Positions 13,204 to 42,078 of a stretch of DNA of 64,000 nt are shown piece after piece. Where the stretch lies: contig OZ038472.1 in NCBI GenBank assembly GCA_964036295.1, positions 12,644,068 to 12,708,067 on the forward strand. The letters are read 5' to 3'. The notes under the pieces are model-generated. The model ran no database searches, was not told the origin of the DNA, and saw nothing but the letters and a program-made list of their open reading frames with translations. The DNA is from Plumapathes pennacea (lineage: Eukaryota > Cnidaria > Anthozoa > Antipatharia > Myriopathidae). The position numbers and the translations under genes were made by a program. Numbering within the stretch: the stretch's first letter is position 1; each line of letters begins with the position of its first letter.

Positions 13204-16200
13204 ATGGCGTCCTCGAAGCACGTCATTCCCGCTGGCGATAAAAACATCAATCCCAAATACCTATGTTCAAGGTGCAGCTCCATTCTTCGGGAAGCAATGC
13301 AGACGCCTTGCGCTCATTTTTACTGCAGGGAATGCATAGATGGCCTCCAAAGGTAAGCTAGTTTAAAAATCTGAAAAAGTTGTCGTTCTCCGGATTGGGG
13401 TGAGATATCATTGCAAAAATTCCAGTAAAGAAAATAAAGTATAGTTCACTAAGTTGCACACGAAAATTGCTACAGTCAAATCTTTCTAAGGCAGACACCT
13501 CGGGACAAGATTGAGAGGTGTCCGCCTTAGAGAGATTTCAGTCACAGAGAAACAAGTGAAAATCGGCAAAGGACCAAATCTGCATGCTGTCCGCCTTAAG
13601 GCTGGTTCACACGAGTAAAGCAAGCGCAAGCGCAAACGCAAACGCAAGCGCAAGCGACTGGTTCACACGGTAAAATTTGTGAAGTAAGCGCAAACGCAAG
13701 CGCAAGACAGTTGAAAAGTTTTCATTCTCTTGCGCTTGCGTTTGCGCTTGCTTTACCGTGTGAACCAGCCTTTAGAGAGGTGTCCGCTTTAGAAAGGTGT
13801 CCGCTTAGAGAGAGTTGACTGTATTCGGTACAGCGAATATAGATTTGTTTATCTTTAAAGGTGTCTTGTTCTGCTTGAGCGAGAATTTAATCTGATGACA
13901 TTGCAGAAGTCATTCCATGGTCAAGGTCTAGTGATGTATACAATCGGATTGACTCTTAGGACTCACAAATGGATCTGAAATCAATCGATGATGCATGCCA
14001 AGTGCGAACAGTCGATGTTTTCGATCCATATATCTGCGATCAATCTGACTGATTTTGACTTGTCACATGTGTCAATAGACGCTCGCTGGTTTTTGAAATT
14101 AGAAAACTGGGATCTTTAAACGACAAAAATAGCCACTTTACACACAAAGAGCACATAAACATTAACATATTTGGAAAGTATCCACAGTTTATTGTGCGAA
14201 ATGCAAAATGATGTGAAGCATAGTATTTATAAACTTTAGCGTGGGATCAGTGCAGTCATGCCTGCCTCGTTTTGATATTTTTTCAAAATCTAAAACGGCT
14301 TTTAGGGAGAATAAACTATTTCCATTAAACCAAAATGTTATAAACGTAAAGTTCAAAGGTTTGATAGGACTGAAAAACAACAACGTAACGAGGCTGAACG
14401 GACACGACTTCAGAATCCCACACTAAACTGTCTCTAAATATCATCCTGAAATTCGGAAAACAATAGTACTCATTCTATTTTTTCTTTCTCCTTTTTCAAG
14501 TGGAAAGATGTTAGAATGTCAAGTTGATGGCTGCCTGTTTACTGAGGCTGAGGTATGGGAGCAAAGTTGTACAAACGTATTTATAGTGTAGCTCGAACTG
14601 CAAATGACAAACAAGTTTAGAAGACCCACATTATGTGTTGTGCTGGACCGGATAGTGAAAGTGGCCTATTTGAGGGCAACTTTGCAAAATGGCAACTGCT
14701 GAAATGTTAAATATCAACTCTATTGAGACGGGCACCTCTTATAACCCGGACAGGGTTTGTTGCCGGTCCCGGACAATCAAATTTCACACATTTGTCTCAG
14801 CATCTAAACTTTCTCATCTGCCGGAAACCTAGACCAAAGCAAGAAAACAACTTGATTGAACCTTCTATGTTTGAAAGGCCCTGAAGTATTGGTCGATAAT
14901 TTGCTCTTATTTCTCGGGTCCGGCTATATGACATATCAAACGTTGCAGTTGTAAAGTTTCGTTATTGTTCTAGGAAGGTTCCCTAAAAGTTTCATGCGAT
15001 TCTGAAGATAATTAGGCCTAAAATGAGTGTTTTTTGAAATATATAAAAAAAAGGCTATAGCCTATGCTTTTGGTACAAACTGGGAAATTTTGCATCTTTA
15101 GAGAAAATTCACTGTGGAACTTCAAAGGAAGCTCTGGATGAGCACGGGTTCACGTCCTGAGTTTCTTTCTTTTCTTTTCTTGTCTTGTCTTTTCTTTTCT
15201 TTTCTTTTCTTTTCTTTTCTTTTCTTTTCTTTTCTTTTCTTTTCTTTTCTTTTCTTTTCTTTTCTTTTCTTTTCTTTTCTTTTCTTTTCTTTTCTTTCTT
15301 TTTTCTTTCTTTCTTTTTTTTTTTTTTTGAACGGAGCAATTTAATTTACTTTGCATCAGTTTGTCTAAACTTCAAAAAACATGGTGAGTGAAAAGTAACT
15401 AAGGGTTATTAACACACAACATGGTTGGTATACAATTAGAATTAAATGGTAGAGAATGATCTTCACAGTTTGTGAGCAGTTGCAAAGAATGCCGAGAAAA
15501 GATTTAGAGGCTTCTACGGGATTCAAACCCACTGACCTCAGCGATACTCTACCCGAATCGTGTTTAATAGGTAAACTTATGAGATCAGGTGCAAGATGAT
15601 AACTACTATACTAATAATATTAGGATAATGCTCATAATTTTTGTAACGCCTAGTAACTACGGTTCCAGGTGAAAATTAGCGATTTTCACAGTTATGATTA
15701 TAGCAACTACCTTGCAGCTGCAAATTTCAAACAAGACGAATAAACAAATGTGACTATGAAGCCATAATGATGACGAAAAACACTAAGTGTAGCAGTAATC
15801 ACTACAACATAATTATTAATTACTGTATGCCATATGCTACTATATCATGTTATTGTATAAACATAACTATCAGTTAAACAGGATGAATTGGTGCAAAAAA
15901 TACGCTGAGTGTGTAAATGTCATTGATAACGACTCGCCATAAAAATAACTATCTTCACAAATACGAATGCATCAGGTGTTCCCAGACGCGTGCGTCAGAA
16001 AGGAAGTGAACAAGTTGATCATTCACTGCGTCAATTTTGAAGAAGGCTGCAAATGGGAAGGGAAAGCGCAAGAGTTGGATGTGAGTACCAATAACTATCT
16101 AAAATTCTATTATTGGTATACACAGTAGAACCCCGCTATATCGAACTCTGAAGGGAAGTGAGAAATAGTTCGAGATAGCGGGGTGATCACCAAAAGGAAA

Positions 16201-19200
16201 TTTCTACTAACGAATTCTGTTCGAAATAGCGGGATTCTAATGTTCCAAGATTTCGTTCCAAAGCAATGCCTGCAGTTAAAGTGCATATAAGCCCAAAAAT
16301 GATATCTTTACAATCGAATCTACATGAAGGAAACATGTCGATTATTAGAATAAGTCTGCGTTTTAACGCTGCGCCTTTGAGTTATAAAGGTTTATATTTT
16401 GAATATGGTAATGACGTGACGTCAAAGAAGGAACAATTTATTATACAAAATCTTGTTGGTGGACATAAATGACATTTTACCAACGTCAATCTTATATTTG
16501 AACTTTGTATAAATGATTTTACCAAATATTTTGTATGAATCTGAAAGCAGTTCCAATCACGAAGAGAAAGAAATAACATGGAATTACTGCTTTGACGTCA
16601 CGTCATTACCATATTCGAAATATAAACCTCTATAACTCATAGGTGCAATGTTGAAACACAAAAATATTCTAACAGCCTATTATAGTCAACTATTTACTTT
16701 ATGTAGAATCGATTGCAAAGATATCATTTTTGGGCTTATGTGCACTTTAATAGCAGTATCCTAACAGTATTGTTTCAAATAGGACTAATCGATATTTAAT
16801 ACATTTCCTACTTTTGAAATCAAATTAGTCCCATTTCAAATCTAGTACGGCATTTTTCCTTTTTTGCTAATTTATCAATATATCAATCATTTCAGAACCA
16901 TTTGTCATCTTGCGAGTTTGCTCACGTGTCATGTGAGAATAAGGAATGCACTGCAGTGATTATGAGATCGCAAATCCAACAACACCTAGAAAATATGTGT
17001 ACTCAGCGACTTGTAACATGCATTTTCTGCGACACGGAAGTTGTTTTTTGCAAAATGGAGGTAAGGCATTTTTTACTTATTAATATCTTGTGTTGCCTGT
17101 TTTAGTGTTCGCATAGTTCTAAAATGATATAAAGAAATCTTCCCAGTGAAATGAATAGAACTGTGCATACGTGAAACCAGCACAACGTTAAAAGTGTATC
17201 TTCTTTTCCTGGGAAGTGCAATGGAAAATTATGAACCCGTGTTACATCTCAGAAAGTGAGCGAACCAAAGGGACAAGGAGAGTCATGGTAAAAATGGCAT
17301 GCAAGCCATACGTACTAATGATAGCCTCGTACATAAGCCCCATCCATGATGGTTTCCTTCAGACACACACTATAGACTCTCAGGAGATTGAAGTTTGTGT
17401 TTATATCATCGACAACAAGAGCACTGCAAACATATTACCTTACAGTGTGAACGACCAGTTAAAGGAACTTCTCTAATGACCTGTGTTCCTTCATAAACTT
17501 GCTCTTACGACATTAGAGCGCTTTTCGGACGACTGTCAAAAACCAAAACCAAAGCAATCACAGAGCCAATCAATGAGGCAAGAAAAAACACGTCGGACCA
17601 TCACCAAATACTGGAACAGTGCCGCTTCCCAAACTCTCTCTACATATGACTCTAAATGATACAGAAGACATTTCTCGATCTCTATACAAGCTACATTGCC
17701 CGTGGCACTAAGTTAGTAATTTTATAACATTTCATAATACCAGTTTTCATGGTTTGGACGGAAACCATGACGGAAGCAGATTAAAACTTGGCTATTATCA
17801 CTAAAGTATAAGCTATGTTATCTTCTTGTCATCTATCATTGAACAATTTTGTGCCTTTCTTTTAGGACCACCAGGCTCTGCTATGCAAGTCTTTTCCAGT
17901 GGAGTGCGACTCCTGCAAAAAGGAGAATATCCCACGTGAATTGCTGAGTCAGCACAAATCGCAGGAGTGTCTCGAAACTAAATCTTTTTGCCCGTTCCTG
18001 GGCATTGGCTGCGGAGAAAAACAGGTCAGAGTTACTACAACTGAGTTTGATCTATTTTCACTACCTCAACTCTCGGACGCACAAAATTATAATTTTATAT
18101 CTCCGTTCTACTTTGAAAATGTCTCATTTATAACTTGGTACTAGGACCGTTGTTTAGTATGCGTTTTCAGAAAGTCTCAATCTCGTACATAAAGTCTTTC
18201 ACCTTCTTATGGCGCATGCAAATAACGAAAAAGGGGTTCAGTAGATAGGCCATTTTTTTAGAATGCATTAATTCTGTAGTTGCCTCTGGAGTCAAAACGA
18301 GAGCTAGTGTAGAATCAGTAGTGCATGATGAGTTACGGCGACAAATGAATCTGAACGTACATATTCAAATTGATGTTGTTTGAGTTTTATAGTTTAATGT
18401 TGAGTCATTGCATACACCCATTCACTGATTTCGATGCATGATGGGTAATTAAGGCAAATAAACTGCATATACATTCGTTTTTCTGATCGGTGGAACTTCG
18501 AAACACTCCAAATTGTCATTTGCAAGCTTTCAGTGGTTCTGATTGTGAGCGATTTTACTATTAAACCGAGACTTCTCGCACGCGTCGCCGCCATGTTTCT
18601 TCGTTCTTGCCCTGATTACCCATCATGCATTAAATACCGTGGAGGGGTCTATGTTTGAGTAAGTTGATGAAAAATAAAGGGATAAACAGAAATGTTCAAT
18701 TTGCAGGAGATGAAGCGTCAACCTCGCAAGAAACATGAAGAGAGCATGCTCCTCTTCCATCTAAATTTGCTGCTATATTTTGCCTTTGGGTTAAAGGAAG
18801 AAATTGGCCGTGTTGCAGCTGATGTAAACCCATTGAGAGATTCAGCAAGTCTCTGGAACAAAGTCAGGGAGACCGTTTCTCATTTGGTTCCGCAAGTGGC
18901 TTCGCTCGCCCGCGATAACAGCCAAATCAAAGCTCTCGTTCAAGCTTTTCAGTCACGGCTAACAACCGTTGAGGAAAAATGTGATGCACCGAGTGGTGCC
19001 ACAGCTTCCTCAGTTAATACCAACGGTTTACAGGCTCAACTGCAGCAACTGGTTTCTGTGATCAACGACTTGATCAGGAAGATATCCAACGTCGAGGCAA
19101 AGGAGGAGAATCACGAACTATTGCTCGTGGAAGCGAACGGAACTATCGAGAAACAGAGGGTGGAAAATGAAATTCTAAAACGCGAGCTCTCTACATCGAA

Positions 19201-19747
19201 GAACGAGAGACGAACTTTGGAAAAAAGAGTTGATACGCTTGAACAACTGGTGCGGAAGCTCGCTACGCCATTGGTTTTACATCCACCGAGCTATGATGGG
19301 ATTTTGCTTTGGAAGATTACCGACGTAGCAGAGAAAAGAAACGACGCAATCGCTGGCAGGCAGACGTCTGTTTATAGCCCTGACTTCTACACAGGTCGCC
19401 ATGGCTACCGCATGTGTGCCCGCATTTATTTGAACGGAGATGGCATGGGTCGTGGCTCACACATCTCGGTGTTCTTTACAGTGAAGCGAAGCGAACACGA
19501 CGCACTTCTCCGATGGCCGTTCAGACAAAAGGTCACCATAATGCTGCTGGATCAAGATAATGAAGAACACGTGATCGACTCCTTTCGACCTGATCCCAAC
19601 AGCTCCTCTTTTCAAAAGCCGCGAAGAGAGTCGAACATCGCCAGCGGTTGTCCCTTGTTTTGTCCTCTCAGTTTGTTGGAAAGAAGGGCGTTCATCAGGG
19701 AAGACACCATGTTTGTGAAGGTTGTGGTGGATTGCCTGGATCTGTAG
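13204..19747 (+). CDS. TRAF-B: complete TRAF-family adaptor, 556 aa
   Basis: Exons join(13204..13352, 14501..14552, 15976..16080, 16896..17060, 17866..18024, 18707..19747). The ATG at 13204 is the first in frame. The RING has C21, C24, C36, H38, C41, C44, C56 and D59, the TRAF-type pattern ending in Asp. TRAF zinc fingers follow at C85/C92/H104/C108, C115/C120/H132/C137, C144/C147/H159/C164 and C171/C174/H187/C192, then a fifth using C199/C206 and later His. A coiled coil (about 300-395) and a MATH domain (about 405-556; LLWKI, RIYLNGDG, LLRWPF, MLLDQD, ASGCPLF) complete it. Length and order are typical of TRAF2/3/5-like proteins, which act in TNFR or Toll/IL-1 signalling to NF-kB and JNK. 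The last two exons are nearly identical to TRAF-C, but the first four are not. Confidence 0.95.
13473..13821. mobile_element. Tc1/pogo-type MITE with TA target site, interrupted
   Basis: The element runs from CAGTCAAATCTTTCTAAGG to the inverted GAGAGAGTTGACTG and is flanked by TA on both sides. Internal copies of GGTGTCCGC(C/T)TTAGA mark the subterminal parts. It lies in the first coding intron of TRAF-B. A second element (13599-13771) is inserted inside it. There is no transposase. Confidence 0.75.
13599..13771. mobile_element. PIF/Harbinger-like MITE nested in the 13473 element
   Basis: Its termini are AGGCTGGTTCACAC and the inverse GTGTGAACCAGCCT, flanked by TTA on both sides (13596-13598 and 13772-13774). 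This is the 3-bp target duplication typical of PIF/Harbinger. The 173-bp body is built of GCAAGCGCAAACGCAAGC-type words. It interrupts the older MITE at a TTA, which dates it as younger. Confidence 0.8.
15162..15328. repeat. (TTTTC)n microsatellite
   Basis: About 27 units of TTTTC end in a T run, inside the second TRAF-B intron. Open frames on both strands (Lys/Arg/Glu or Phe/Ser/Leu repeats) are artefacts of the repeat. Confidence 0.97.
15430..15570 (-). mobile_element. tRNA-derived SINE fragment
   Basis: On the minus strand the segment GTCAGTGGGTTTGAATCCC matches a tRNA box B (GGTTCGAATCC, one change). It is followed by a body containing GAAGATCATTCTC. This combination resembles anthozoan tRNA-like SINEs. 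Box A is degenerate, so it is likely an old, inactive copy. It sits in a TRAF-B intron. Confidence 0.5.
16127..16250. mobile_element. Short DNA-transposon remnant (CCCCGCTATATCGAAC)
   Basis: CAGTAGAACCCCGCTATATCGAA at the start is followed by internal GTTCGA(G/A)ATAGCGGG words that are its partial inverse, a pattern of pogo/Tigger-like MITEs. The right end is not clear. The MITE at 38480-38640 in TRAF-C belongs to a similar class. Confidence 0.5.
16270..16756. mobile_element. Foldback element in TRAF-B intron
   Basis: The left arm starts CTGCAGTTAAAGTGCATATA and the right arm is its inverse, ending in GTGCACTTTAATAGCAG. Arms are about 180 bp with mismatches and meet around 16513. Both arms contain a TGACGTGACGTCAAAG-like block (near 16410 and 16595). 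No coding capacity. Confidence 0.75.
18434..18630. mobile_element. MITE with ATGCATGATGGGTAAT ends, TRAF-B last intron
   Basis: Inverted ends ATGCATGATGGGTAAT and ATTACCCATCATGCAT bracket 197 bp. The corresponding intron of TRAF-C holds the same insertion at 40756-40950, so it was present before the two gene ends were duplicated or homogenised. The interior contains CGCCGCCATGTTT. Confidence 0.75.
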
Positions 19748-19933
19748 AAGAACGTTGAGCAATCGTCTTTTTTAACAGGGTTTAATTGATTGGTTTACTA
19801 AATGTGGGATTTCGCATGTTCTATTATAAGCTGTATTTGTTAGATTTTAGTCTTTTTATATATCCTCTCTTCGTTGTAAGTCAGACGCCGTTGGTCGTTG
19901 CATCTTTCGGAGCGCAATTATATTCGCCACACA

Positions 19934-20189
19934 ATGACTTTCTGGTTAAAGTGCGAACTCTACTTTACTTATACATGGATGTTACTCGTCCGCGGTGCTG
20001 CCCTGGTGATAGCGGCTTCTGTAGTTTATCGGGAGCAGATTCCGTGCCGAGTAATTGAAGGAGTGACCGCCGACTTAATGATCACGGGCTCTACGTGACA
20101 CAAGAAACTAAACTACCAGTTGGGGAAGCAAAAAGTGACAAGACTCAGGAAGGTAAAGTGGCGACCTGATCTCTCGAATTTAAAAGAGT

Positions 20190-20226
<37 letters not shown>

Positions 20227-20521
20227 CCGAGCCGTGTAAGAACAGTCGACGTTTTCTCGTCCCATTTTAATGATCCCAACTGTAAGTGGGTTAGTTAGAA
20301 AACATTTCTCTTGAAATGTACATAGTGCATTATTTCTATTGATTCCGAACAAGTTTCACATCACAATCAGCTTATTTTCTAGGCATTTTGCACCTGCTTT
20401 GGACGTAAACTATAGATGAATAAATGCTCTCTTTGAGTGACGACATATTATACATGGTTGTAATTTCCGTTGGCTTTCTTTGGTTTCAGGAAACTTGGCA
20501 GTCGAGTTGCGAGACCCCTGA
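19934..20521 (+). pseudogene. Frameshifted second copy of the small membrane protein
   Basis: It is homologous to the gene at 6467-7522, and the leader, the N-terminal helix and both splice sites are conserved. Expected exons are 19934..20152 and 20490..20521. Relative to copy 1, sequence after the membrane helix is deleted so the frame shifts by one; the ORF then stops at 20096-20098 after 54 aa. The downstream coding words (TQET, KSDKTQE) and the last exon are intact but out of frame. It starts only 187 bp after the TRAF-B stop. It may be a decayed copy or a shortened protein that keeps the helix. Confidence 0.55.
20189..20224. repeat. (TTTA)n microsatellite
   Basis: Nine tandem TTTA units lie in the intron of the second small membrane-protein copy. 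Confidence 0.95.
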
Positions 20522-20695
20522 TGGTAATGCCGGGACTTGATGAACGTATTGTACAGAAAAGAACAAAGTATCTTGAAGAATACACATATACAACAACGCG
20601 TGGTATGTAGAGTTTTAGGGCCTGTTTACATGATGGGGCACCTAGCACTAGGATCACCCTAACTGGTGGGTCGGTTTTACATTTGGTTTACATAT

Positions 20696-20931
20696 TGTAA
20701 CGTTTTAAGGCCGGGCCCTCAGGCCTGGCTGAGCCTAAAGGCCCGACCGTAGCCGAGCTGACAAACGGACCAAACGACGCACACGTGAACCGGGACAAGA
20801 AGAGATTTATTTAAACAATTCATCTGCTTTTATATAGTTTCGGTTAATAATTAGCAGTATCCGTTTTAAGATCATGGGTTCGTTTGCGTAATGGAAGATT
20901 ACGCAATTATCTCAATGTGGCACACGTTACA
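20696..20931 (-). repeat. 3' LTR of the TRIM-like element
   Basis: 236 bp, TG...CA termini, and very similar to the LTR at 22228-22463. By eye I find no clear difference in the two copies, which implies a recent insertion. Confidence 0.9.
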
Positions 20932-24371: not shown

Positions 24372-25028
24372 TGTTACGGAGCAGATTTTAGAGAAATCTG
24401 TTACGGAGCAGATTTTAGGGGACTCGCTTCTGTACTCGATGACTTCTTTATTCGGGATTCAGTGCAGAACTCTTGAGCTTCGACACTAACGGAGAGCTCG
24501 GGCTCCAAGTCACAACTCTAGCTCAACTCCACTCAACTGAGCTCCACTCCACTCAACTCAATTCAACTCCACAAACTACCGGTTTAAGTATGCTCAGGGA
24601 GCACGTACAGCGATACCAAACTTCCGTTTGGGTAGACAACTAAATTGGATAGCAAATCCACAATGAGATTAGACCGGAAAGGAATGGACGGAAGTTCCAC
24701 GGCATAGGCGACTACAAAGACTCCTAAGGTGTCTGTGCATCACGATGCCGAGCAACCACTTGGCAGCTTAGCGCAAATCGTGCAGGTAAAGCTTACCGAC
24801 AGGCACATTCGTAGTGAACCTGGCGCCATGGCTTTCCTGCGGTTTGTGCTGCACACGCAAATGCTTCGCTGACCTCATTTATGAACTATGCTCCTAAAGG
24901 CTACTGCAAACCTAAGTCCGAAGGTCAAATGTGAATCCTTCCGTTTGCAAATACAAGTTCGCTCCAGGATAGCCGAAATATTATTCTTTATAATAAACTT
25001 CCAAATTGTTCCGAATTGTCCCTTGACA
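24372..25028 (-). repeat. 3' LTR (657 bp) with 27-bp terminal duplication
   Basis: Matches the right LTR apart from an extra 27 bp at the outer end: the word TGTTACGGAGCAGATTTTAG appears twice, separated by AGAAATC. The same GAAATC lies between the LTR and the primer site at the other end, suggesting the extra unit arose during reverse transcription. Confidence 0.88.
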
Positions 25029-26458
25029 TTACCCCCCTGTTTTGTAAAGTCGACTCCGGCGACTAAAAAGAAGAAAAAAAAGAAAACAATTTGGCAGAAT
25101 ACATCTGGAGGGAGACCTTGTGGTTGCATACGTAAGTGTTCCTAAGAAAAAAGTACCGGGCAGCGAATGCCGTATCGTACTAACAGTAACAAATGAGAAA
25201 ACTCGTCTACACTAAGGACATATAAAGCATGTTTCGCGGGTTACATGCGAGCGACAATTTAAAGCAATGTTTTACCAATTTCCCGTGCACAGCATGTCAC
25301 TTGTTACATTCTAAATCAACTAATTTTACCAAGTTCAGTTATTTCTAAGCGACTAGTATGGGAGTAACATACTATATGTAAAATTCGTTACACAAATTTT
25401 GAGCAATGGCAATGTTCAGAGTCTCAATAGGTTCAACCGAGAGTGTTCTTTTGTCGTTGTCTGATATGTCGCATGACATAGGTTCAGGGTCTTGGAAGAT
25501 CTGGTTCTTGGTTGGACGGTGTTGTTCTTGCGCCAGTAGTAAGGAGTAGCAAGTAGCAAGTCTTGATCGGCTGATATATCGCTGGATGGAAATGGAATCA
25601 TATGGTACGTGCAAGTTTGACTAGAATCGTTCTGTTGGACATGTTCTTATGTTTGTTTTTTGGATTTGCGGTCACGCAGTATCATGGCGTGCGGTATCGT
25701 GGGGCTGCTTGTTGACAGAGCCTGTCGCCTCTTGCGTAGATAGTTCACTGTTCTTCTGAAAAGCACGCGTTTGGATGTTTGGTTGTTCTCTCTTTGACGA
25801 GTGGGTTTTCTTGACAACGAGTGTACGTTGTCCTGACGTCGGCTGCGTGGTCCAACGTTGTATTAGACAGGAATTGTGTACCAGTATAAATTCTCGTTTG
25901 TAGTCAGCGAATCAGCCAAGAGTACAACAGGAGTGCCGGTGATTAGAACAGGTGGCGCAGATGTGGCGTCGTTGAGATGTGAGTGGGGTATCAAAGTTAT
26001 GAGAAAAACCAAGCCAGACTAAAGCTAACACTTAGATACAAAATATGATTCCTACTTATAAAAAGACGAAGATAAAAACTAAGTGATTACAGCAATAGGT
26101 GTCTGGCTACGTTATTGAAAAGAACTACGTGTCATTCCAAACGGTTGATAAAATATACTGACAGACAAAACGAAAGGTTGAACGAACAACTACTGATCTC
26201 ACTCTGAAAGTTGAAAATGATATTGCCGGCACAATATAAAAAGATAACTCGAATTCATATCAAAACATAATTATAGCTAGGTTTGGCTTACGAACGCAGT
26301 GCGCAATCAGTCCGTTCAGTGATAATGGTTATAGCTGCAATTGTTTTAACAAGTGTTCAGAACCATATCGTTTTTCTAATCCGGTTTTTCGTTCACGTTT
26401 TGATTTAGTCGCTGTCTTACAAAGGCCTTATGTGCTTCCCGTTCACATAAGACCAAAT

Positions 26459-27673
26459 CTAGTTTAAAGGTGGGGAATGACCTGTCGGGTGCTGTTCCGA
26501 CTGGCCTGCATATCTCTCGGGGTTATAATTTGGGAGCCTGGGGTCCCGTTGTCCTTGCCGTTGACGACAGGCGTAGGCCACATGGCCTGGTTTGTTGCAA
26601 TAATTACAAATCGGACGGCCGTCAAAAGTACGTCTGTTACGATTTGTGTTTCCCCTGTTGTTGGCGCGGCTGTCGCTCGTGCGACGCAATTCTTGGCGCA
26701 CAATTTGGGCAATGTCGTCGCGGTTCAGGGGTCGTTCGCTCACACGATTGCTAGATGACTGGCGGCTCTCGTACGCAGCAATTGTGGCTGGCGGAGCCGA
26801 TTTTAACAATGGCGTCAGCGCTTTTACCAGATCGTCAATTTTGTCGTCCGTTTTAGGCTCGGGCACTGACTCTTTTAATTTTGCGTGATTTTCCGCTTCT
26901 TCTAGTGTCCCTGGCCGTTGAAGCACCACATAATTCTTGATTTCGGGTTTCAGGCCCTGCACAAAATGGTTTACACATTCAGAGCGCGGTAAATCGATTC
27001 GCTGACAAGTTCGTCTTATGTCTGCGGCATATTCCGTTACTGACTCTGTTGACAGTTGTTTCCGATCGTTCAATTTTTGGCGGAGTAGCCATTTATCGGA
27101 TGCCGAGTGAAATTGATTTCTCATCGCTTCCATCAGTCCCTCATACGACTTGTCGGCTAAATCGGGACTGGTGTTGAACCAAATGCTGGCGTTTTCTTTT
27201 AAATGCAGGGGCAGCGCCTGCGCTTTTCGTTCGTTTTGCCACCCATGAAAGGTGGCTGCCCGTTCGAAATTGGTCAAAAATTCATTGACATCTTCGTTAA
27301 AGCTACCGGAAAATGTGGGTAACTTAACGCTATTATACTTGGCAGGCCCAGTCGGTTTGCTTGAGTTTTCGACAATTTTCGCCAAAGCGATTGTTTGAGC
27401 GTTCCATTTCTCGGCAAAACGCTGGTTTTGGTCCTCCAATAGCTGGAGAACATCTTTTGCCGTTAAGGGTACCGTGGCTTGAGCCGTTGGGTCTCCGCCG
27501 TCTGCCATGAAACTTTCCGTTATTTCAATTGCGTCAGTAAATGATTCCGTCGACTCTGATTCTGAATCTGATTCCAATTCTGACAGGACCGATTGAGCTA
27601 CCGGTTCATCTAGGTCCAAACCCGATTTTGCTTTTGAGGAGTCAGTCAAAGCCTTAGTTTTGCTTCGAGTCAA
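26459..27673 (-). CDS. Retrotransposon Gag polyprotein, 404-codon ORF
   Basis: A continuous open frame with no in-frame ATG before residue 56 (ATG at 27508). Translation therefore either starts there, giving about 349 aa, or at a non-AUG codon. The N-terminal part is acidic and Ser-rich. Residues 115-290 resemble a retrotransposon Gag capsid domain (LPTFSG, FLTNFERAA, LPLHLK, AIWF-like, RQKLNDRKQ, FVQGLKPEIK). A single zinc knuckle C-x2-C-x4-H-x4-C uses C356, C359, H364 and C369. The protein should package element RNA into a capsid. The ORF ends with TAG and no pol frame follows. Ty3/gypsy-type is most likely, because capsids of this kind are common there, but without pol this cannot be confirmed. 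Confidence 0.9.
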   Translation of the reverse strand: MTRSKTKALTDSSKAKSGLDLDEPVAQSVLSELESDSESESTESFTDAIEITESFMADGGDPTAQATVPLTAKDVLQLLEDQNQRFAEKWNAQTIALAKIVENSSKPTGPAKYNSVKLPTFSGSFNEDVNEFLTNFERAATFHGWQNERKAQALPLHLKENASIWFNTSPDLADKSYEGLMEAMRNQFHSASDKWLLRQKLNDRKQLSTESVTEYAADIRRTCQRIDLPRSECVNHFVQGLKPEIKNYVVLQRPGTLEEAENHAKLKESVPEPKTDDKIDDLVKALTPLLKSAPPATIAAYESRQSSSNRVSERPLNRDDIAQIVRQELRRTSDSRANNRGNTNRNRRTFDGRPICNYCNKPGHVAYACRQRQGQRDPRLPNYNPERYAGQSEQHPTGHSPPLN

Positions 27674-28024
27674 CGGTTTGAAACCTCAAATTAACCCAAG
27701 ACGAACTCGCGAACAATACCGTATCAACTCACAGCGAGATCAAGATCAACTTGGAAAAATTGTCAGCTTGCTGCATGAACATTAAAATAGACGCCTAGCA
27801 TTGATTATCAAACATTTGGAACGACACATCAATCAGTTGACTATATAACCATAACATACATAATTTCTTTTTCTTTTTCTTTTTTTTCCGAGTTTTTTTC
27901 CTAGACTTTTTTTTGTTACATATTGTTCTTACTTTACACTATACATGTTGCCTGGCTTGGCAATACACTCACAACTTCGATACACTCACTACAAGACTGA
28001 GAGGTCTTACCGGGAACGGTTGTG

Positions 28025-28042
28025 CCGCGGATTTTAACACCA
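28025..28042 (-). promoter_or_regulatory. Primer-binding site of the Gag-only element
   Basis: On the minus strand it starts TGGTGTTAAAATCCGCGG, so the pairing tRNA would end ...AACACCA. TGG next to the 5' LTR is the usual position and start. I do not recognise which tRNA this is. Confidence 0.6.
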
Positions 28043-28048
28043 GAAATC

Positions 28049-28678
28049 TGTTACGGAGCAGATTTTAGGGGACTCGCTTCTGTACTCGATGACTTCTTTA
28101 TTCGGGATTCAGTGCAGAACTCTTGAGCTTCGACACTAACGGAGAGCTCGGGCTCCAAGTCACAACTCTAGCTCAACTCCACTCAACTGAGCTCCACTCC
28201 ACTCAACTCAATTCAACTCCACAAACTACCGGTTTAAGTATGCTCAGGGAGCACGTACAGCGATACCAAACTTCCGTTTGGGTAGACAACTAAATTGGAT
28301 AGCAAATCCACAATGAGATTAGACCGGAAAGGAATGGACGGAAGTTCCACGGCATAGGCGACTACAAAGACTCCTAAGGTGTCTGTGCATCACGATGCCG
28401 AGCAACCACTTGGCAGCTTAGCGCAAATCGTGCAGGTAAAGCTTACCGACAGGCACATTCGTAGTGAACCTGGCGCCATGGCTTTCCTGCGGTTTGTGCT
28501 GCACACGCAAATGCTTCGCTGACCTCATTTATGAACTATGCTCCTAAAGGCTACTGCAAACCTAAGTCCGAAGGTCAAATGTGAATCCTTCCGTTTGCAA
28601 ATACAAGTTCGCTCCAGGATAGCCGAAATATTATTCTTTATAATAAACTTCCAAATTGTTCCGAATTGTCCCTTGACA
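28049..28678 (-). repeat. 5' LTR (630 bp) of the Gag-only element
   Basis: TG...CA LTR matching 24399-25028 closely over its whole length. It includes a patch of CTCAACTCCACTCAACT-like short repeats. Confidence 0.9.
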
Positions 28679-28682
28679 ATAT

Positions 28683-29942: not shown

Positions 29943-29980
29943 CGGTTAGGCTTTTTTTTTTTTTTTTTTTTTTTTTTGTT
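29943..29980. repeat. Poly-T tract
   Basis: A run of more than 25 T. Sequence from about 29980 to 31140 shows no recognised gene or repeat unit. Confidence 0.85.
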
Positions 29981-33455: not shown

Positions 33456-33689
33456 AAATCAAACGATACCATTTCGACAAGCTGAAGTGGCTCCCGGCTG
33501 GGTTTTTCAGCTTTAACATAAGCTCATCAAACAATCGTGAATTCATCAAAACCGCGGTGATAATAGCTCAGAATGAAACAGGCCGACTGGAAATTTAGAA
33601 AGCTTGGTAGAAGAAACGCAATTTAGAAGACGAAAAACAGGTAAGTAATGAAGCACAGGCTAGATTACAGTAATCGTGGCCTGCGATTA

Positions 33690-34410
33690 GGCATGGGTCG
33701 CACTTAAGCAAAGTTGCCGTCTTTGCCGGCGAAAATAAACACAAATGTTTGCAACCGCAACCGGAAGGGAAACACTTTGACAACTGATTAGGGTCGCGCT
33801 GATTAGGGTCGGAGGTCTTATCAGATAAAGCCAGATGTTTGGGATGATTTGGCTTTCCGTGCCTCTCGGCTCTCGATGCGGTCAAAATTTTCCGCCCACA
33901 GGTCGATCAACATGTTTTCCTCTTCGGTCGACCAGCGATCGTATTATCTTCTCCCCTCTGATCCGAACGACGACGACGATGAAGGGGTTGAAGCGGTCAC
34001 CGGCGGGCTCTCCTGTGAATTGGCAGCCTGTGGCACGGGATACGACGGAAACTGCTGCTGGAGAGGATGGTCAACATCATACGCCTGGAATTGTGGAGCG
34101 GGGTAATAGAAACCACGACGTCCGTCCATTGCTGCAGAGCGCGGGCAAATAAAAATCCCACGCTTTTCGAAATATAACACAGGATGACAGGACTTGACAG
34201 CTACCACTCAGATTGCCATTGTTCAACTCGATTTTCGAAATATCTGCCTACCCCACCCAAGCACTACGGCCTCTTTGATGTTTCGGCCGATTTGCAAAGT
34301 TTTGCCAAGCTACAAAACTTGGGGTCGCATTTCGCGACGGGCGCCGCTGACAGATTTCAACCGCAGAGTAAACAAATCCTCACCAAACTTTGCTAAGTGC
34401 GACCCATGCC
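33690..34410 (-). mobile_element. PIF/Harbinger-like element carrying a Myb-like gene remnant
   Basis: Ends GGCATGGGTCGCACTTA and TAAGTGCGACCCATGCC are inverted and flanked by TTA on both sides (33687-33689, 34411-34413). The 721-bp body has no transposase but keeps part of a Myb/SANT-like ORF on the minus strand. Autonomous PIF/Harbinger elements encode exactly such a second protein, which supports the assignment. Confidence 0.85.
33850..34129 (-). pseudogene. Broken Myb/SANT-like protein of a Harbinger element
   Basis: From an ATG at 34129 the frame reads a Pro/Gln/Ser-rich leader (MDGRRGFYYP, then a Ser run), a TAA at 33944-33946, and then in the same frame a trihelix-like start (RWSTEEENMLIDLW, then WAENFDRI). 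The Trp-x-x-x-Glu-Glu and Leu-x-x-Leu-Trp spacing is that of Myb/SANT-like DNA-binding domains paired with PIF/Harbinger transposases. The in-frame stop precedes the domain, so the copy should be inactive. Confidence 0.65.
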
Positions 34411-34413
34411 TTA

Positions 34414-36614
34414 GAACAAATGTTCGAAGTCAAACTGTCAAAACAATTATGCATGAAAATGAGATGTCACGCAATTACTCCCAAACTCAAAATGTAGATT
34501 CTCTCATCCTTTTGAAGCAAATGTACGAGTGTTAGAATTATAACTTATAGTTTAATCAGGTTCATTTGAGTAAATCAAAAGCCAAGTTCCCCATACTGTA
34601 TAATATTGAAAGTTGATCCCTCTTGGGAGTCTCGCTCTAGTCCAGAGATTGCTTATTCAACAATTCATATGGTGCGTGCGGACACTTGCCATACCAAACT
34701 TGAATCCCAGCATCTGTCGCGTTTTCACGCGAAAAAACTTGTTAGTAATCCTAGTGTTACGTTAGGTCACTTCAAACTAAACTTCCCCCAGAAAAAGGAA
34801 CACTTTGGGTCATGAACTGTTCCTATTCCGGAACAGACTCAATGGAACGCACCCTAGGTGAATGCTTGTACGAAACAGAAGGCGTCAGCTTTTCGACAGA
34901 GTAATTATGAACAGAAGAGCAGCCCGACCTTACAAAATAAAAACGTCAGCAAAGGGCCCACAGCTCAAAATGAAGCTGATACTATTATCGTCTACAAAAA
35001 AAAAAAAAAAAAAAAACAGCATACGTTCCGCGGCTGAGCTTTGTGTATCTTGAAAACTCTAGCTTTGTACGAAGTTACTCAGAGCTACCTCAGGTAACTG
35101 AACTCCGGCTCACCGGTTGTCAACAGCTGAAACCGCGGGAATACGTTTTTTCAGCCGTGCGATCGTCTTGAATCAGTGTATGGCGACGAACGCTGACCAG
35201 CGGAAGTGACGTCGAACATATTTCCGCGGTCTCTGAACAATATACATTAGCATAAGGGAATTCCCCGGATTTGTTGATATCTGGAGCGCTCGTTCATCGA
35301 CAACAGAGCTTTCACAAGTAAGTAAATCGTAATTTTACAAGTTGTAGGACGTTATAAAGGGACTTCCCCGTTTCTTGTACTGGGTTGAATGTACACAAAA
35401 TGCTTACTTAGCATGTTTTTTAACGAGTCTAGCCTCAACACCAAACCACAGCTGCTGCAATTTAATAGCATTGACGAGTCGATTTTTATATTCTAGTTGT
35501 CTTGGTAGAGCATACTACTACAATGTTCAACCATCAGAAATTATATCACCAAACAATACTTTTACAACTAAACACCAAACCGTACAAGGACACAGAACCC
35601 CGTTCCGTATAAACGTGTTGGCACGGCATATATAACCCGCCGTGACGAGTCGTGCCCACAATCGAGACAACAGCCCATTTCCGCGAGCCGTACATTTAAG
35701 CGTTTGCTAGGAACTAATCGGGAATGAAGTTCCAGTCTTGTGTCAGAAAGCATTTTACTTAATAACCAGGAGCGGCTGAAATTCGGGCTAAATCGCTTCA
35801 GTCCCAGTTTGCTTCAAGGCCCATATATGAAGAACGAGGCTGGAGCGCAAGGGGCCTGAGGAAGAACTAAAGAGCAGCTGAAATACAGGCTACAGGCGAA
35901 TGAACTCATCAAAAAAGGAAAGCGTAAGATTCATTTGCCTCATATAGGCGCAGCAAACTTGGTCAGCTTCATCAAAGTATTGTGCTTGACAGCCAAGAGT
36001 ATTTTTTGGCATAACATGTGTACCAGCTTGCCAAATTGCGCTTTTCTTATGCTACTCTCATTACTGAGCTTCAGTTTCGTTCCGTGAGGGAAAATGATTC
36101 TGGATCGTTTTTCTTTTCTTTCTTTTTTTTTTTTTGTTTTTTTAGAGTTTATTACCCAATTTTCTCTCTCTTTGCTTTTCAAAGTATTAAAACGACTTGC
36201 TAGAGTCAGTCTCGACAGTCATTTTTTGTGACCACCCGACAGTATTGTGCGTTGATTATTTTTTAAGCGTCGTTCAGCGCAATCAATGCCAGAACCACAG
36301 CCTCAGTTGATCGGAGAAGACACGCAGACATGCATTTTTCCGCATCAGCAATTCCGAGTCTTATAGTGTGTCTAGATTTTAGCGTTGATTTGATGACGAG
36401 TTTTTTTCTATATATATATTGGACGACCGATACCAACTCGGAGTCACGTGGATATTGACAAGGTATATCCAAACAACTTTGATGGCATTCACAGTTCTAA
36501 TTGACCAACTGGTTAAATTAATGTTTCAGGCTCCATTAGGTACTTTCCCTGCAATTCAACACTATTTCGGCAGAGTTAGCACTTCTTAAGTCTCACTTTC
36601 CATTCCGCTTTCAG
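34414..36614. other. TRAF-C upstream region, no gene recognised
   Basis: Contains an A run at 34997-35018, a T-rich tract at 36110-36150, and short unassigned ORFs. A splice acceptor TTTCAG at 36609-36614 probably precedes the first coding exon of TRAF-C. No promoter element is clear. Confidence 0.45.
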
Positions 36615-36740
36615 GATTCAGTTTCGTAACCGAATTCCCTCATCCTGGCATACGCCGTGACTGCCGAGAAAAAACTATCCTTCATTGAGCAGAGTTTGGG
36701 CTTCTTTTCTGTGGTTTCTGTGCTTCACTTGCTTGTCAAC

Positions 36741-39700
36741 ATGAATTCAAAGCACGTGGTACCCGTTGACGATGTAAAGAGTACCAAGTACATGTGTTCG
36801 CTCTGCAAATTTGTCCTCCAAGAACCTATGCAGGCACCGTGCGCTCATTTCTTCTGCAAAGGATGCCTTCCGGGTATTTCAGTGAGGTAAGCCATTCATT
36901 TCTCCTGATATTAAAAAGCATGCTCCTTTACTGTTCGTTCTTTGACTGCACCTCCTTTACTGGATCTTGGATCAACGCAATAATGGAGTAACCTGGGGGC
37001 CGAAATGGAGCTTGGACTGGACCAGGGTGCAAATTACTATTGTACATTTTTTACAAAATTCAAAAGTTGAGCGTTAGCCTCTCCGTACCGTGGTGCTTTC
37101 TGGGATTGGAGACCGGTCAATTTTCCCACGGGCTGATGCTATTTTCCGTGACATTTGCACACGTCACAGCGTAGCGTAGCCATGGTTTTTCCTCAGCACG
37201 GATGACAGGCAACAGCACAGCAAGGTAGCGAACTAAACAAATGCACTTGGTAAAGAAGAATAAATACCCGACTAAGATAAATATCAACGAACGCGTGACG
37301 CGGCTTTAAGTTTGGTTTTAGAAACCTTTTTGTTTTGCACAGCTTGCACAGGATTTTATTTTCATGGACGTCCACGAATATTGTATATTTAACAATTATT
37401 CGCCGAAGTGGAGGTGAATAGCGGTGGATATTTACCGAGTCGTTTCGGCGAGGTAAATATCCACCGCTATTCACCGACACTGAGGCGAATAATTGTTTTC
37501 GTATATACCACACAAGTTTAATAGCCAACTCCCAAATAGCTATTTTATTTCCGACGAAAGTGGGCAAAAATTGGGTTAGCGCGCCGTTTTGTTTTACCGG
37601 AATTAGCCGCCGGGAGGTGAATAGTACTTGATATTCCGAGATTGAGGAGCCAATCAGAGCGCGCGAATAGCACTATTCACTTGCGTGGTATATACTAACT
37701 AGTATTACAGTTATAGTACTAACCTCAGAAATCTTAGTTTTGGCTCTTACCACCCCAGAATGCTGCCTTGTTCATAAATGTCTTTCACGTTGCAGTGAAA
37801 ACTTCATGAAATGCCCAGTGGATAGCTTTACTTTCACGAAGGAAGAGGTATGAGTAGATTGAGGCCAAAAGCAAAGGCATCGGTTCCCGAAGTCGACTTC
37901 TTAAAGAGACCCTCGCACCGTAGATGCTTTGCGCGCCCAGTGATTGACGGCGGTCATCAGTTCGTATCATACGAAAATGGCGGATTCTCATGTTTTTCTA
38001 CTAGTGACGTGAAACGTAAAACGTGACGTTTTATCGCGAAATAACTCAGTACAAACTCAGACAGTGTATTGAATACGGCAAGCAGCGAGAGTCAGATCGA
38101 TCAGTCACAACGTGGGCGTCTCGGGAAAGTCGAGCTCCGGATGTAAATATAAACTTGGACGCGCAAAGCATCTACAGTGAAAGGGTCTGTTTAACCGCGC
38201 AACGAAAAAATTACGAGAAGCAAAATCCTCTCCTCAAGACGCACCAAAGGCGGACTTTGAGAAAGTCTAGCAACGTATTGATTAGTCTGATTATCAATCG
38301 TTGAAGTTGTTGTTATCGGAACAAAGTTTAAAACATAAATATCTGTAAGCTAGTACAATTAATATAAAAGATCGGAAGTTCCAAAAAAGTATATTCTTTC
38401 GGAGAGTTCGCGTTTCTCGAAAAATGGCTGCGAGGCTACGAAGCGCGCAATGGGTTTTGAGTGTTGGTTTTTCTAGATTCAGTGAAACCTCGATATAAAG
38501 AAGGCCAGGGGACTGGGAAGATGTGTTCGTTATTACGCGGGGTTTCGTTATAGCGATGTTCCTTCTCACATACTTGCATTTTACTGTAACCGGGCTGCAG
38601 CAGGCTGAAGATTGTTGTTCGTTATATCGAGGTTTCACTGTTAAACGCAATAATATTCGAGCACATAGATAACAAAATGTAACAAAAAGATGGGGTATCA
38701 TTCAGGTTTTTCCTGACGCTTGTGTAAGGATTGAAGTGAGCCGCCTGTTAGTTCACTGCACCAAATTCAAAAGTGGTTGCACATGGGAAGGAAAATTCCA
38801 TGAACTAAAGGTAAGTAGTAACGTCGATCACTAAACACAATGACTGCTTGAAGCACATATTTTATAACAACATACATATGATTACACAGATATGAATGAT
38901 GAACTACCGAGATGATCCAATTAAATAATTAACCCTTGATTAATGCGTCTGTCGTCCACTGGGCTTGCATACCATATAATTATGTGTACAGTTTACCGGC
39001 TCGAGTTAGACACTTTAGCTGTCAGTAGTGGTTACGAAGTCAACGTGTTAAGAACGTGTTTTGGCGGTATCACAACCTTCTGTTTCTGTTAGTTCAGTTT
39101 TGTTTTGGTTTGGTTTGGTTTGTTTTTTTGTTTTTTGTTTGTTTGTTTGTTTTTTTTTTCACCAATCTGACTCACTGATTTTTAATTTGGGCTATATGTA
39201 GGATTCGTTCTGACGAAGAGCTAACACTCGAAACGTCAGCTACTGTTACCCTTACGGCGTTCCAAGTACCTCGATCAACTTTCAGTTGATACACCAGCGT
39301 TTTTATCACCACGCCGACGCAGTTAATCTAGTTCTCTTAAGAGCTGGTATCACACTATATGTAGTATGTTTGAGTATATACCATACATCTTAAAAAAGAA
39401 TCCCTTATATAATGTCTTTAAAGAAAAACAAGTCATGCGGGCGTGTCTTAACCAACTCTGTATTTCTTGCTCCAGAACCACTTACTATCATGTGGTTACG
39501 TTGAAGTTAAATGTGATCATACGGATTGCAATGAATTGGTGTTGAGGTCTGATCTCCAAGAGCATCTACAAAACCAATGCACCCAACGGCAAGTTCAATG
39601 TGGATACTGCAAGGAGGAAGTGGTATTCTGCGCAGAAGAGGTATGATTGACCATTACGAATCCAAGTCGGATTTTTAGTGAAGTTCAATACTATGCATTA

Positions 39701-42067
39701 GGCGGCACATTTGCAAATTAAAAGCATTTTTACAGTTGTACCTTTTAGTGTTTGTTCCCTTCATGCTCAGCAACTTGTCACTGAGCTCATAGTATGTATA
39801 TAGATGAATTGATGTATAATAATTTATTTCACCACTATTAATCTTCTCCAGTTCAAGTGGTGATATAATTCGTACTTCACAGTAGTATTTAAGTTCACCT
39901 ATTTTACAGTATTTGATGTAAATAGTTTTTCCTTGCCGGAAGACTAGCTCACCAGCACTTCTTAATAAACTTTGATAGGATTTTTGCTGGTAAGCCGCCA
40001 CAAGGTGGAAACACACTGAGCTTACTATGAATAATGAGCTAGTCTAGATAAAGGATTAACTTAAGTCCCCTTCTCAGCGCAATGGATAGTCGGCACACTC
40101 TTGGCTGTTATCACTAAAACATAAGCTATGTTATCTTGTTGTTAGCTTGCATTAAAGAACTTTATGCCTGTTGTTATTGTTGTTGTTGTTGTTATTGTTT
40201 TCTTCAGGACCACCAGACTCGGCTTTGCAAGTCTTTTCCAGTCGAGTGCGACTCCTGCAAAAAGCAGAATATCCCACGTGAATTGCTGAGTCAGCATGAG
40301 ACGCAGGAGTGTCTCGAGACTAAAAAATTTTGCCCGTTCCTGGGCATTGGCTGCGAAGAAAAACAGGTAAGAGTTACTGCAAATGAGTTTGATTTATTTT
40401 CACTACCTTAACGCTGGGACGTACTTTGAAAATGTCTCTTTTACAACTTGGTTACTAGGACCGTTGTTTAGTATACGTTTTCAGAAATTTTCAATCTCGT
40501 ACATACAGTCTTTCACCTTCTTATGGCGCATGCAAATAACGAAAAAGGGGTTCAGTAGATGGGCCATTTTTTTTAGAGTGCATTGATTCTGTTGTTACCT
40601 CTGGAGTCAAAACGAGGGCTAGTGCAGAATCAGTAGTGCATACTTATGAGTTAGCGACAAATGAATCTGAACGTACGTATTTAAATTGATGTTATTTGAG
40701 TTTTACATAGTTTAATGTTGAGTTATTAAATAGACCTCTTAGTTACGGATTTGAACGCATGCGGGGTAATCGAGGCAAATAACTGCATATACATTCGTTT
40801 TTCTGATCGGTTGAACTTCGAAACACTCTAAGTTGTCATTTGCAAGCTCTCAGTGGTTCTGATTGTGAGCGATTTCACTATTAAACCGAGACTTCTCGCA
40901 CGCGTCGCCGCCATGTTTCTTTGTTCTTGTCCTGATTACCCATCATGCATTAAATACCGTGAAGGGGTCTATGTTTGAGTAAGTTGATGAAAAATAAAAG
41001 GATAAACAGAAATGTTCAATTTGCAGGAGATGAAGCGTCAACCTCGCAAGAAACATGAAGAGAGCATGCTCCTCTTCCATCTAAATTTGCTGCTATATTT
41101 TGCCTTTGGGTTAAAGGAAGAAATTGGCCGTGTTGCAGCTGATGTAAACCCATTGAGAGATTCAGCAAGTCTCTGGAACAAAGTCAGGGAGACCGTTTCT
41201 CATTTGGTTCCGCAAGTGGCTTCGCTCTCCCGCGATAACAGCCAAATCAAAGCTCTCGTTCAAGCTTTTCAGTCACGGCTAACAACCGTCGAGGAAAAAT
41301 GTGATGCAGCGAGTGGTGCCACAGCTTCCTCAGTTAATACCAACGCTTTACAGGCTCAACTGCAGCAACTGGTTTCTGTGATCAACGACTTGATCAGGAA
41401 GATATCCAACGTCGAGGCAAAGGAGGAGAATCACGAACTGTTGCTCGTGGAAGCGAACGGAACCATCGAGAAACAGAGGGTGGAAAATGAAACACTAAAA
41501 CGCGAACTCTCCACATCGAGGGACGAGACACGAGCTTTGGGAAAAAGAGTCGATACGCTTGAACAACTGGTGCGGAAGCTCGCTACGCCATTGGTTTTAC
41601 ATCCACCGAGCTATGATGGGATTTTGCTTTGGAAGATTACCGGCGTAGCAGAGAAAAGAAACGACGCAATCGCTGGCAGGCAGACGTCTGTTTATAGCCC
41701 TGACTTCTACACAGGTCGTCATGGTTACCGCATGTGTGCCCGCATTTATTTGAACGGAGATGGCATGGGTCGTGGCTCACACATTTCGGTGTTCTTCACA
41801 ATAAAGCGAAGCGAGCACGATGCGCTTCTCCGATGGCCGTTCAGACAGAAGGTCACCATAATGCTGCTGGATCAAGATAATGAAGAACACGTGATCGACT
41901 CCTTTCGACCTGATCCCAACAGCTCCTCTTTTCAAAAGCCACGAAGAGAGTCGAACATCGCCAGCGGTTGTCCCCTGTTTTGTCCTCTCAGTTTGTTGGA
42001 AAGAAGGGCGTTCATCAGGGAAGACACCATGTTTGTGAAGGTTGTGGTGGATTGCCTGGATCTGTAG
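36741..42067 (+). CDS. TRAF-C: complete TRAF-family adaptor, 555 aa
   Basis: Exons join(36741..36886, 37796..37847, 38706..38810, 39476..39640, 40208..40366, 41027..42067). The ATG at 36741 is the first in frame after the acceptor at 36614. The RING uses C19, C22, C34, H36, C39, C42, C55 and D58. TRAF zinc fingers span about residues 84-230, a coiled coil about 300-395 and MATH about 404-555. ZnF1 shares about 22 of 35 residues with TRAF-B and ZnF2/3 about 27 of 55. By contrast ZnF4/5 differs at about 7 of 53 and the last exon at about 11 of 346. Function as for TRAF-B: receptor adaptor and likely RING E3. The different RING and finger surface could change its E2 or partner choice while receptor binding stays the same. 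No small membrane-protein copy follows. Confidence 0.95.
37391..37497. repeat. Hairpin MITE in TRAF-C intron
   Basis: AACAATTATTCG and CGAATAATTGTT bracket a 107-bp inverted repeat with inner arms GGTGAATAGCGGTGGATATT. A following segment to about 37690, with CCAATCAGAGCGCGCGAATAG and ACTATTCAC, looks like more of the same element. Confidence 0.75.
37905..38190. mobile_element. TTAA-flanked MITE in TRAF-C intron
   Basis: TTAA on both sides (37901-37904, 38191-38194) surrounds inverted ends of about 38 bp, including GTAGATGCTTTGCGCG and its inverse CGCGCAAAGCATCTAC. TTAA target sites are typical of piggyBac and Kolobok. It is 286 bp, non-coding. Confidence 0.75.
38480..38640. mobile_element. 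Pogo/Tigger-like MITE in TRAF-C intron
   Basis: CAGTGAAACCTCGATATAA at the left is inverted as TTATATCGAGGTTTCACTG at the right, 161 bp in total, ending just before ZnF1 of TRAF-C. It is similar in type to the remnant at 16127. Confidence 0.8.
39205..39360 (-). repeat. Diverged copy of the 12.6-kb palindrome arm
   Basis: Shares TTGATACACCAG, CCACGCCGACGCAGTT and CTAGTTCTCTTAAGAGCTGG with the 12550-12716 region, in reverse orientation and as a single arm. It contains CTGACGA...CGAAACGTC at 39210-39237. It lies in a TRAF-C intron. Confidence 0.8.
40756..40950. mobile_element. Shared MITE in TRAF-C last intron
   Basis: Counterpart of the element at 18434-18630, at the same place in the last intron. 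The left end is more diverged (CGCATGCGGGGTAATCG), and the right end CATCATGCAT is intact. Confidence 0.7.
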
Positions 42068-42078
42068 TGAGGTATTTT

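Follow-up and report, generated by a model that had tools for sequence, protein, structure and literature searches.

How did two neighbouring TRAF genes come to share a nearly constant 3' half while their 5' halves diverged so strongly? TRAF-B and TRAF-C of Plumapathes pennacea raise this question in the window analysed here, a stretch of 64,000 nucleotides (C11:12644068-12708067) from a genome of 290,015,204 bases in 24 contigs. A preliminary description of this DNA had put forward gene conversion or a late partial duplication as the cause.

TRAF-B and TRAF-C, both on the plus strand, have six exons each, with GT-AG sites and matching splice phases (translation and splice-site search), and encode conceptual proteins of 556 and 555 residues, respectively, free of internal stops. 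In TRAF-B, exon 1 (13204..13352; translation, splice sites and alignment to the TRAF6 RING) contains the start codon and the first half of the RING, and exon 2 (14501..14552; splice-phase search and match to TRAF-C) supplies the second half with its C-x2-D motif. ZnF1 is encoded by exon 3 (15976..16080), ZnF2/3 by exon 4 (16896..17060; zf-TRAF match on the protein), ZnF4/5 by exon 5 (17866..18024), and a coiled coil (named by homology), the MATH domain and the stop codon by exon 6 (18707..19747). The corresponding exons of TRAF-C lie at 36741..36886 (start codon, first half of RING), 37796..37847 (second half of RING, C-x2-D), 38706..38810 (ZnF1), 39476..39640 (ZnF2/3), 40208..40366 (ZnF4/5) and 41027..42067 (coil, again named by homology, MATH and stop). 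The small 52-base second RING exon, present in both genes, was absent from the preliminary description. A third gene, TRAF-A, is an older tandem paralog; its coil and MATH exon 6 (2930..3991, plus strand) has a 72% DNA match to TRAF-B and TRAF-C over ~380 bases of the MATH part.

Pfam recognises the MATH domain (PF21355; 153.9 and 154 bits in TRAF-B and TRAF-C, cut-off 27.4) and, in two stretches per protein, zf-TRAF (PF02176; 54.3 and 55 bits, cut-off 27). RING models score under their cut-offs (20.3 vs 21 for TRAF-B; 20.1 vs 25.2 and 19.7 vs 27 for TRAF-C); the RING Cys/His spacing is present in both proteins, and TRAF6 RING-finger structures align across the RING. The closest solved structure to the TRAF-B MATH domain is TRAF2 (1ca4, E 7e-67), and the RING/finger part is nearest TRAF6 among solved structures (E 6e-22 for TRAF-C and 1e-21 for TRAF-B). 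Set against the structures of TRAF2/TRAF3 and TRAF6 (1ca4, 1kzz, 3hcs, 5vo0), the two halves of each protein are of mixed affinity, the MATH domain TRAF2-like and the RING and fingers TRAF6-like. The residues that we take to be the receptor-peptide contacts of TRAF2 (R393, Y395, D399, F410, F447 and S453-455) are all identical in TRAF-B in the alignment to 1ca4, and TRAF-C has the same residues.

The window also contains repetitive DNA. Between TRAF-B and TRAF-C lies an apparently young LTR retrotransposon (24392-28681) with two 640-base repeats that are 99.8% identical and, inside it, a gag frame on the minus strand (26459-27685; Pfam Retrotrans_gag and Ty3 capsid). Downstream of TRAF-C there is a 5.2 kb minisatellite (47200-52387; 37-base unit, about 140 copies, 87% matches) and a minus-strand reverse-transcriptase frame (52674-53615; Pfam RVT_1) that is probably part of another retroelement.

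The similarity between TRAF-B and TRAF-C changes abruptly between exons 4 and 5. Identical aligned positions number 25/51, 6/17, 22/35 and 27/55 in exons 1-4, and 46/53 and 335/346 in exons 5 and 6; the counts from ZnF1 onwards reproduce those first reported for this DNA. The synonymous change is likewise stepwise rather than gradual when taken exon by exon: silent divergence is near saturation in exons 1-4 (pS 0.64, 0.74, 0.76 and 0.71), then falls to dS 0.19 in exon 5 (dN 0.07) and to dS 0.076 in exon 6 (dN 0.015; dN/dS about 0.2). Among conserved amino acids only, with Met and Trp left out, the codons for identical residues are themselves identical at 34/77 positions in exons 1-4 vs 352/372 in exons 5-6 (Fisher p = 8e-24), a by-exon check of clustered identity of the GENECONV type that had been proposed, made with a Fisher test in place of that program. 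Self-BLAST of the window delimits the similar block to 17787-19747 in TRAF-B and 40100-42067 in TRAF-C, in agreement with the limits first estimated (about 17787 and about 40100, through to the stop codon), with 91.25% identity over 2000 aligned columns, 104 mismatches and 10 gap openings. In a global alignment, 100-column windows before 17787/40100 and past the stop are at background, 25-46% identity. The block begins in the 3' end of intron 4 (17787..17865 in TRAF-B, JC 0.22 to TRAF-C, with 15 mismatches over these last 79 bases; 40100..40207 in TRAF-C, where a 29-base simple repeat absent from TRAF-B is included).

Non-coding sequence inside the block is similarly alike. Intron 5 (18025..18706 in TRAF-B) shows 48 mismatches to its TRAF-C counterpart over 650 aligned bases (JC 0.078), along with 8 gap events, and, as had been noticed earlier, both introns carry the same MITE at the same site (18412-18652 in TRAF-B and 40730-40972 in TRAF-C, plus strand). 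The two MITE copies are separated by JC 0.088, and the element matches at least 38 other genome places at 88-95% identity among the 40 of 506 candidates scored. The shared site indicates that the intron was copied after the MITE had inserted. Divergence within the block falls into two tiers: the intron-4 end together with exon-5 silent sites differs at ~21/112 positions, vs ~66/893 for intron 5 together with exon-6 silent sites (p = 2.6e-4), so that the outer tier, on few sites, is ~2.5 times more diverged. These tiers suggest, again on few sites, an older, longer tract with a younger one inside it and more than one episode of copying. A further event within exon 6, considered for the near-zero silent change in codons 1-100 (~1/68 vs 16/175), was not adopted, the difference reaching only p = 0.047.

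The edges of the block do not appear to be set by mobile elements. Where the block starts in intron 4, no repeat was detected (40 of 1143 and 31 of 31 candidates scored); the intron-4 elements, at 17512-17601 and 39800-40002, sit away from the boundary, and repeat insertion as the source of the sharp 5' edge is not supported. At the other end, identity stops at the stop codon. A palindromic repeat element (42078..42156, unstranded, with dispersed genome copies on both strands) starts at the 11th base past the TRAF-C stop, and it does not create the 3' edge, because the ten bases that precede it already mismatch, agreeing with TRAF-B at 2/10. Beyond the stop, the flank of TRAF-C is unlike that of TRAF-B. 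A low-copy segment lies 3' of both TRAF-B (19799-20616) and TRAF-A (6331-7625), the two copies being 76% alike; it is matched otherwise only at C11 12.740, 12.745 and 12.756 Mb, with no match near TRAF-C. The copy in the TRAF-A flank may hold a small membrane-protein frame (6383-6832).

Outside the block, TRAF-B and TRAF-C are nevertheless each other's closest relatives among the loci compared. For exons 1, 3 and 4, and also for exon 5 inside the block, either gene has the other as its best match across the window and 81 loci, with the runner-up RING to TRAF-B exon 1 close behind TRAF-C (54.3 vs 58.9 bits). In an exon-by-exon genome search that scored 150 of 193 candidates, TRAF-C is the best non-self match of TRAF-B exons 1, 3 and 4; the higher scores of certain other RING/finger frames in this search come only from a wider query span. 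We found no second MATH exon near TRAF-C, the window holding only those of TRAF-A, TRAF-B and TRAF-C, although a short decayed remnant could escape such a search. Genome-wide, the TRAF-B exon-6 protein gives 59 MATH-exon matches at E <= 0.001, some of which are pieces of one exon. This count relies on that protein as the query rather than on Pfam MATH PF00917, which finds one genome place only. Elsewhere in the genome, at G000:C5:2559207-2560760, a TRAF-like gene appears to have its RING/finger and MATH parts in one intronless open frame of 521 residues.

These observations bear on the two causes first put forward. Late partial duplication, or an unequal exchange, would have placed a duplicated B-like 3' module, reaching from the end of intron 4 to the stop, behind exons 1-4 of another old TRAF gene that lost its own 3' exons; in a variant, a recent whole-gene copy would have had its 5' half replaced. 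Such a junction could well lie in an unalignable intron, as the 5' edge does, and would agree with the unlike post-stop flank of TRAF-C and with the lack of any match near TRAF-C to the segment that neighbours TRAF-A and TRAF-B on the 3' side. The kinship of the 5' exons speaks against it: exons 1, 3 and 4 of TRAF-C are closer to TRAF-B than to any other TRAF among the loci compared and have the same splice phases, no second MATH exon was found beside TRAF-C, and the two tiers of divergence suggest repeated events. We therefore regard a partial duplication, in either form, as unlikely. Late partial duplication and assembly error both account for the data less well than gene conversion between two old tandem genes, which is favoured by the near-saturated yet best-matching 5' exons, the shared MITE, the edge at the stop codon and the failure to find a second MATH exon near TRAF-C.

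Under gene conversion, TRAF-B and TRAF-C would be old tandem TRAF paralogs, sisters with replaced 3' ends. Interlocus gene conversion would have written exons 5 and 6 of one gene over those of the other, together with intron 5 and the last part of intron 4 (79 bases in TRAF-B, 108 in TRAF-C), probably on two or more occasions, and the tract would end at the stop codon because earlier homology ended there. Exon 6 would since have been held almost unchanged by purifying selection (dN/dS about 0.2). A tract bounded by homology alone is an imperfect fit, because its 5' boundary falls within intron 4, and little homology is expected there between old paralogs. The exon structure differs from that of TRAF-A within the same part of the gene: ZnF4/5 is a single exon in TRAF-B (17866-18024) and TRAF-C (40208-40366) and is split by an intron in TRAF-A (about 1759-1830 and 2024-2116). 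Since ZnF4/5 sits inside the converted block, this intron loss could have passed between the genes.

Edges of the same kind recur elsewhere in the family. We compared eight hand-picked exon-6 pairs, TRAF-B/TRAF-C included, and in five of them (B/C, D/E, L025/L029, L033/L040 and L024/L028) similarity is lost no more than about 10 bases from the stop. The first four of these have exon-6 identities of 95-97%; their likeness ceases at a point from 2 bases before to 10 bases after the final base of the stop codon, and the next 200 bases show 43-48% identity, the level of unrelated sequences forced into alignment. In D/E (C11:12.73 and 12.78 Mb), likeness of the flanks resumes at 79-88% beyond an insertion. 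The fifth pair, L024/L028, has only the last 677 coding bases in common, at 88%, and there the likeness breaks off 7 bases short of the end of the stop codon. Two pairs, L031/L040 and L026/L034, agree across exon 6 and the 3' flank but not in the 200 intron bases directly upstream; L041/L043 match throughout. Edges at the ends of coding homology are the outcome that homology-limited conversion would give. One locus, L040 (C1:18411045-18412088), looks recombinant: its coil resembles that of L033 (C11; 161/169 identical codons for shared residues) and its 3' flank that of L031 (C11; 189/198).

The wider family shows a shorter unit of similarity, which the preliminary description did not cover. 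From the 59 matches, 30 loci were fetched and, with the partial L044, L046, L049, L050 and L051 left out, 25 copies of exon 6 were aligned (23 besides TRAF-B and TRAF-C). Silent divergence is lower in MATH than in the coil in 255 of the 300 pairs; in L024/L038, the coil is near saturation (pS 0.70) and MATH has pS 0.14. Low silent values centre on alignment columns 300-375 (~75 codons, 225 bases), a patch chosen after seeing the data; a later 75-codon scan has its maximum at start columns 295-305. These columns presumably correspond to TRAF2 residues 376-450, which would place R393, Y395, D399, F410 and F447 within the patch and the serine tong outside. When identical codons for identical residues are compared inside and outside the patch, 97 of the 253 pairs without TRAF-B or TRAF-C pass Bonferroni correction and 156 fall short, and 21 of the 97 (of 90 such pairs) join contigs C1 and C11; these counts are descriptive, because the patch was picked after inspection of the data and the pairs share ancestry. 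Against the remaining MATH alone, only 56 of 300 pairs are significant. Eight rows spanning the coil tree, some of them within one coil clade (L024 and L025; L028, L045 and L047), give 20 passing and 8 non-passing pairs out of 28. Not every pair follows the trend: coil and MATH do not differ significantly in L031/L040 or L028/L035, and L033/L040 shows the opposite (161/169 in the coil, 108/135 in MATH).

Several further comparisons concern the origin of this patch. There are 124 pairs in which less than half of the identical coil residues are encoded by identical codons. For these, the proportion of identical codons rises from 0.38 in the coil to 0.78 in the core and is 0.56 beyond the core; core codon usage predicts 0.51 against the observed 0.778, so codon bias accounts for only part of the core identity. 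A six-row clade of the coil tree (support 100/99) is rejected by the MATH data (AU p = 0.010); the coil tree carries long-branch warnings for TRAF-A, F and L045. A permutation test in the manner of GENECONV, on conserved residues, is significant for 10 of 300 pairs, none with TRAF-B or TRAF-C, and the runs lie inside columns 317-380 in nine of the ten. Mean GC3 in the 23 other rows is 0.709 in the core and 0.511 in the coil, a difference of the sign that GC-biased conversion would produce; the TRAF-B and TRAF-C cores have 0.53-0.55. A codon- or RNA-level constraint was rejected as the cause of the patch and is unlikely, because five recent pairs (B/C, D/E, L025/L029, L028/L038 and L041/L043) have no significant excess of identical codons there. 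A ~75-codon patch over the receptor-binding shelf of MATH thus appears, from the codon comparisons, to have been silently homogenised among TRAF genes with unrelated coils.

TRAF-B and TRAF-C stand apart from this pool, a further point beyond the scope of the preliminary description. None of the 46 pairs that join either gene to another copy passes for the core patch, and the B-C pair is also not significant; the TRAF-B counterpart (19370..19594, plus strand) does not share the homogenisation. Identity of TRAF-B or TRAF-C to the rest is uneven within MATH (windows of 0.26 to 0.73) and, in the core, slightly above the saturation expectation (0.47 vs 0.37).

Two accounts without conversion or duplication fare worse for TRAF-B and TRAF-C than the partial duplication discussed above. 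Strong purifying or codon-level constraint might keep the two 3' halves alike with no copying at all, as the strong conservation of MATH and the exon-6 dN of 0.015 could suggest. Intron 5 and the MITE, however, are about as similar as the exon-6 silent sites (Fisher p = 1.0 for intron 5 vs exon 6), and this agreement points to copying, not protein selection, as the cause of the likeness. Nor does the core of recent pairs show silent constraint, with 62/70 identical codons in the core vs 248/256 outside for B/C and 62/69 vs 239/249 for D/E; the mean for TRAF-B or TRAF-C compared with other TRAFs is 0.47 both in the core and in the remaining MATH. We consider constraint highly improbable. An assembly error that copied the 3' end of one gene into both places, which had been named as a possible refutation and which the abrupt start and the end exactly at the stop might recall, is just as improbable, because the two copies of intron 5 are 7-8% apart and separated by 8 gap events, whereas a copied contig would be near-identical rather than separated by 104 mismatches and 10 gap openings, and because similar blocks are present elsewhere in the TRAF family.

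Taken whole, interlocus gene conversion between TRAF-B and TRAF-C, with shorter MATH tracts in the wider family, is probably the correct explanation. The same process would act on the other TRAF genes in shorter pieces, and TRAF-B and TRAF-C would lie outside that pool and convert only each other.

Domain-limited conversion is itself established for another set of innate-immunity paralogs, TLR1 and TLR6 of mammals (Kruithof et al. 2007, PMC2077338). TLR1/TLR6 resemble TRAF-B/TRAF-C in several respects. Both are tandem pairs from innate immunity in which the N-terminal part has diverged and a block nearer the C-terminus has been homogenised; among codons for conserved residues, 96.3% are identical in the TLR block, 56.2% N-terminal to it and 64.7% after it, compared with 352/372 in exons 5-6 and 34/77 in exons 1-4 here, and the 3' untranslated region is outside the block in both cases (PMC2077338). 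The systems differ in that TLR1/TLR6 are a receptor pair with a tract within coding sequence, whereas TRAF-B/TRAF-C are an adaptor pair whose tract includes a MITE-bearing intron; the TLR data come from nine species, whereas ours come from one genome and add a multi-locus pool on two contigs. Expansions of TRAF genes are known (PMC4083563, PMC4346834). Acropora digitifera has 32 members, described in one passage as 'overrepresented relative to humans' (PMC4083563), and the 59 MATH-exon matches found here, some of them pieces of one exon, point to a similarly large set. That account counts members, and its passages on the family do not mention conversion. In the open-licence literature, in part as represented by titles and the opening lines of abstracts, no description of gene conversion among TRAF genes came to light; within the same range of sources, the TRAF case, a tract spanning an intron and a multi-locus MATH-core pool were not found in print.

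The arrangement had been read as a constant receptor-binding end with variable RING and finger surfaces. As anatomy of TRAF-B and TRAF-C this holds, with the amendment that constancy extends to the coiled coil and fingers 4/5. Since both proteins have the putatively trimerising coil and the MATH domain in common, they are predicted to form mixed trimers on common receptors, with RING and ZnF1-3 surfaces that differ between the partners. The RINGs may also differ in activity: at the positions of Ile72 and Pro106, which we assume to be E2 contacts of TRAF6, structure alignments place Leu and Pro in TRAF-C, which is thus TRAF6-like there, and Arg and Gln in TRAF-B, which is not. By extension, homogenised 3' ends might serve to diversify immune adaptors.

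A joint reading of these features can be offered only tentatively. Recurrent GC-biased conversion of the 225-base MATH core between clusters on two contigs might keep a common receptor surface while RING, fingers and coil diverge; TRAF-B and TRAF-C might then have departed from the pool to form a private, larger unit, with two RINGs on one coil-MATH, in which TRAF-B, predicted from its residues to be the less active, could compete. If MATH passes between loci, gene trees and ortholog calls based on MATH would mislead for expanded TRAF families. The family would also offer a natural test of whether conversion keeps the docking end of an adaptor common while its signalling end diversifies, as has been proposed for TLR1/TLR6.
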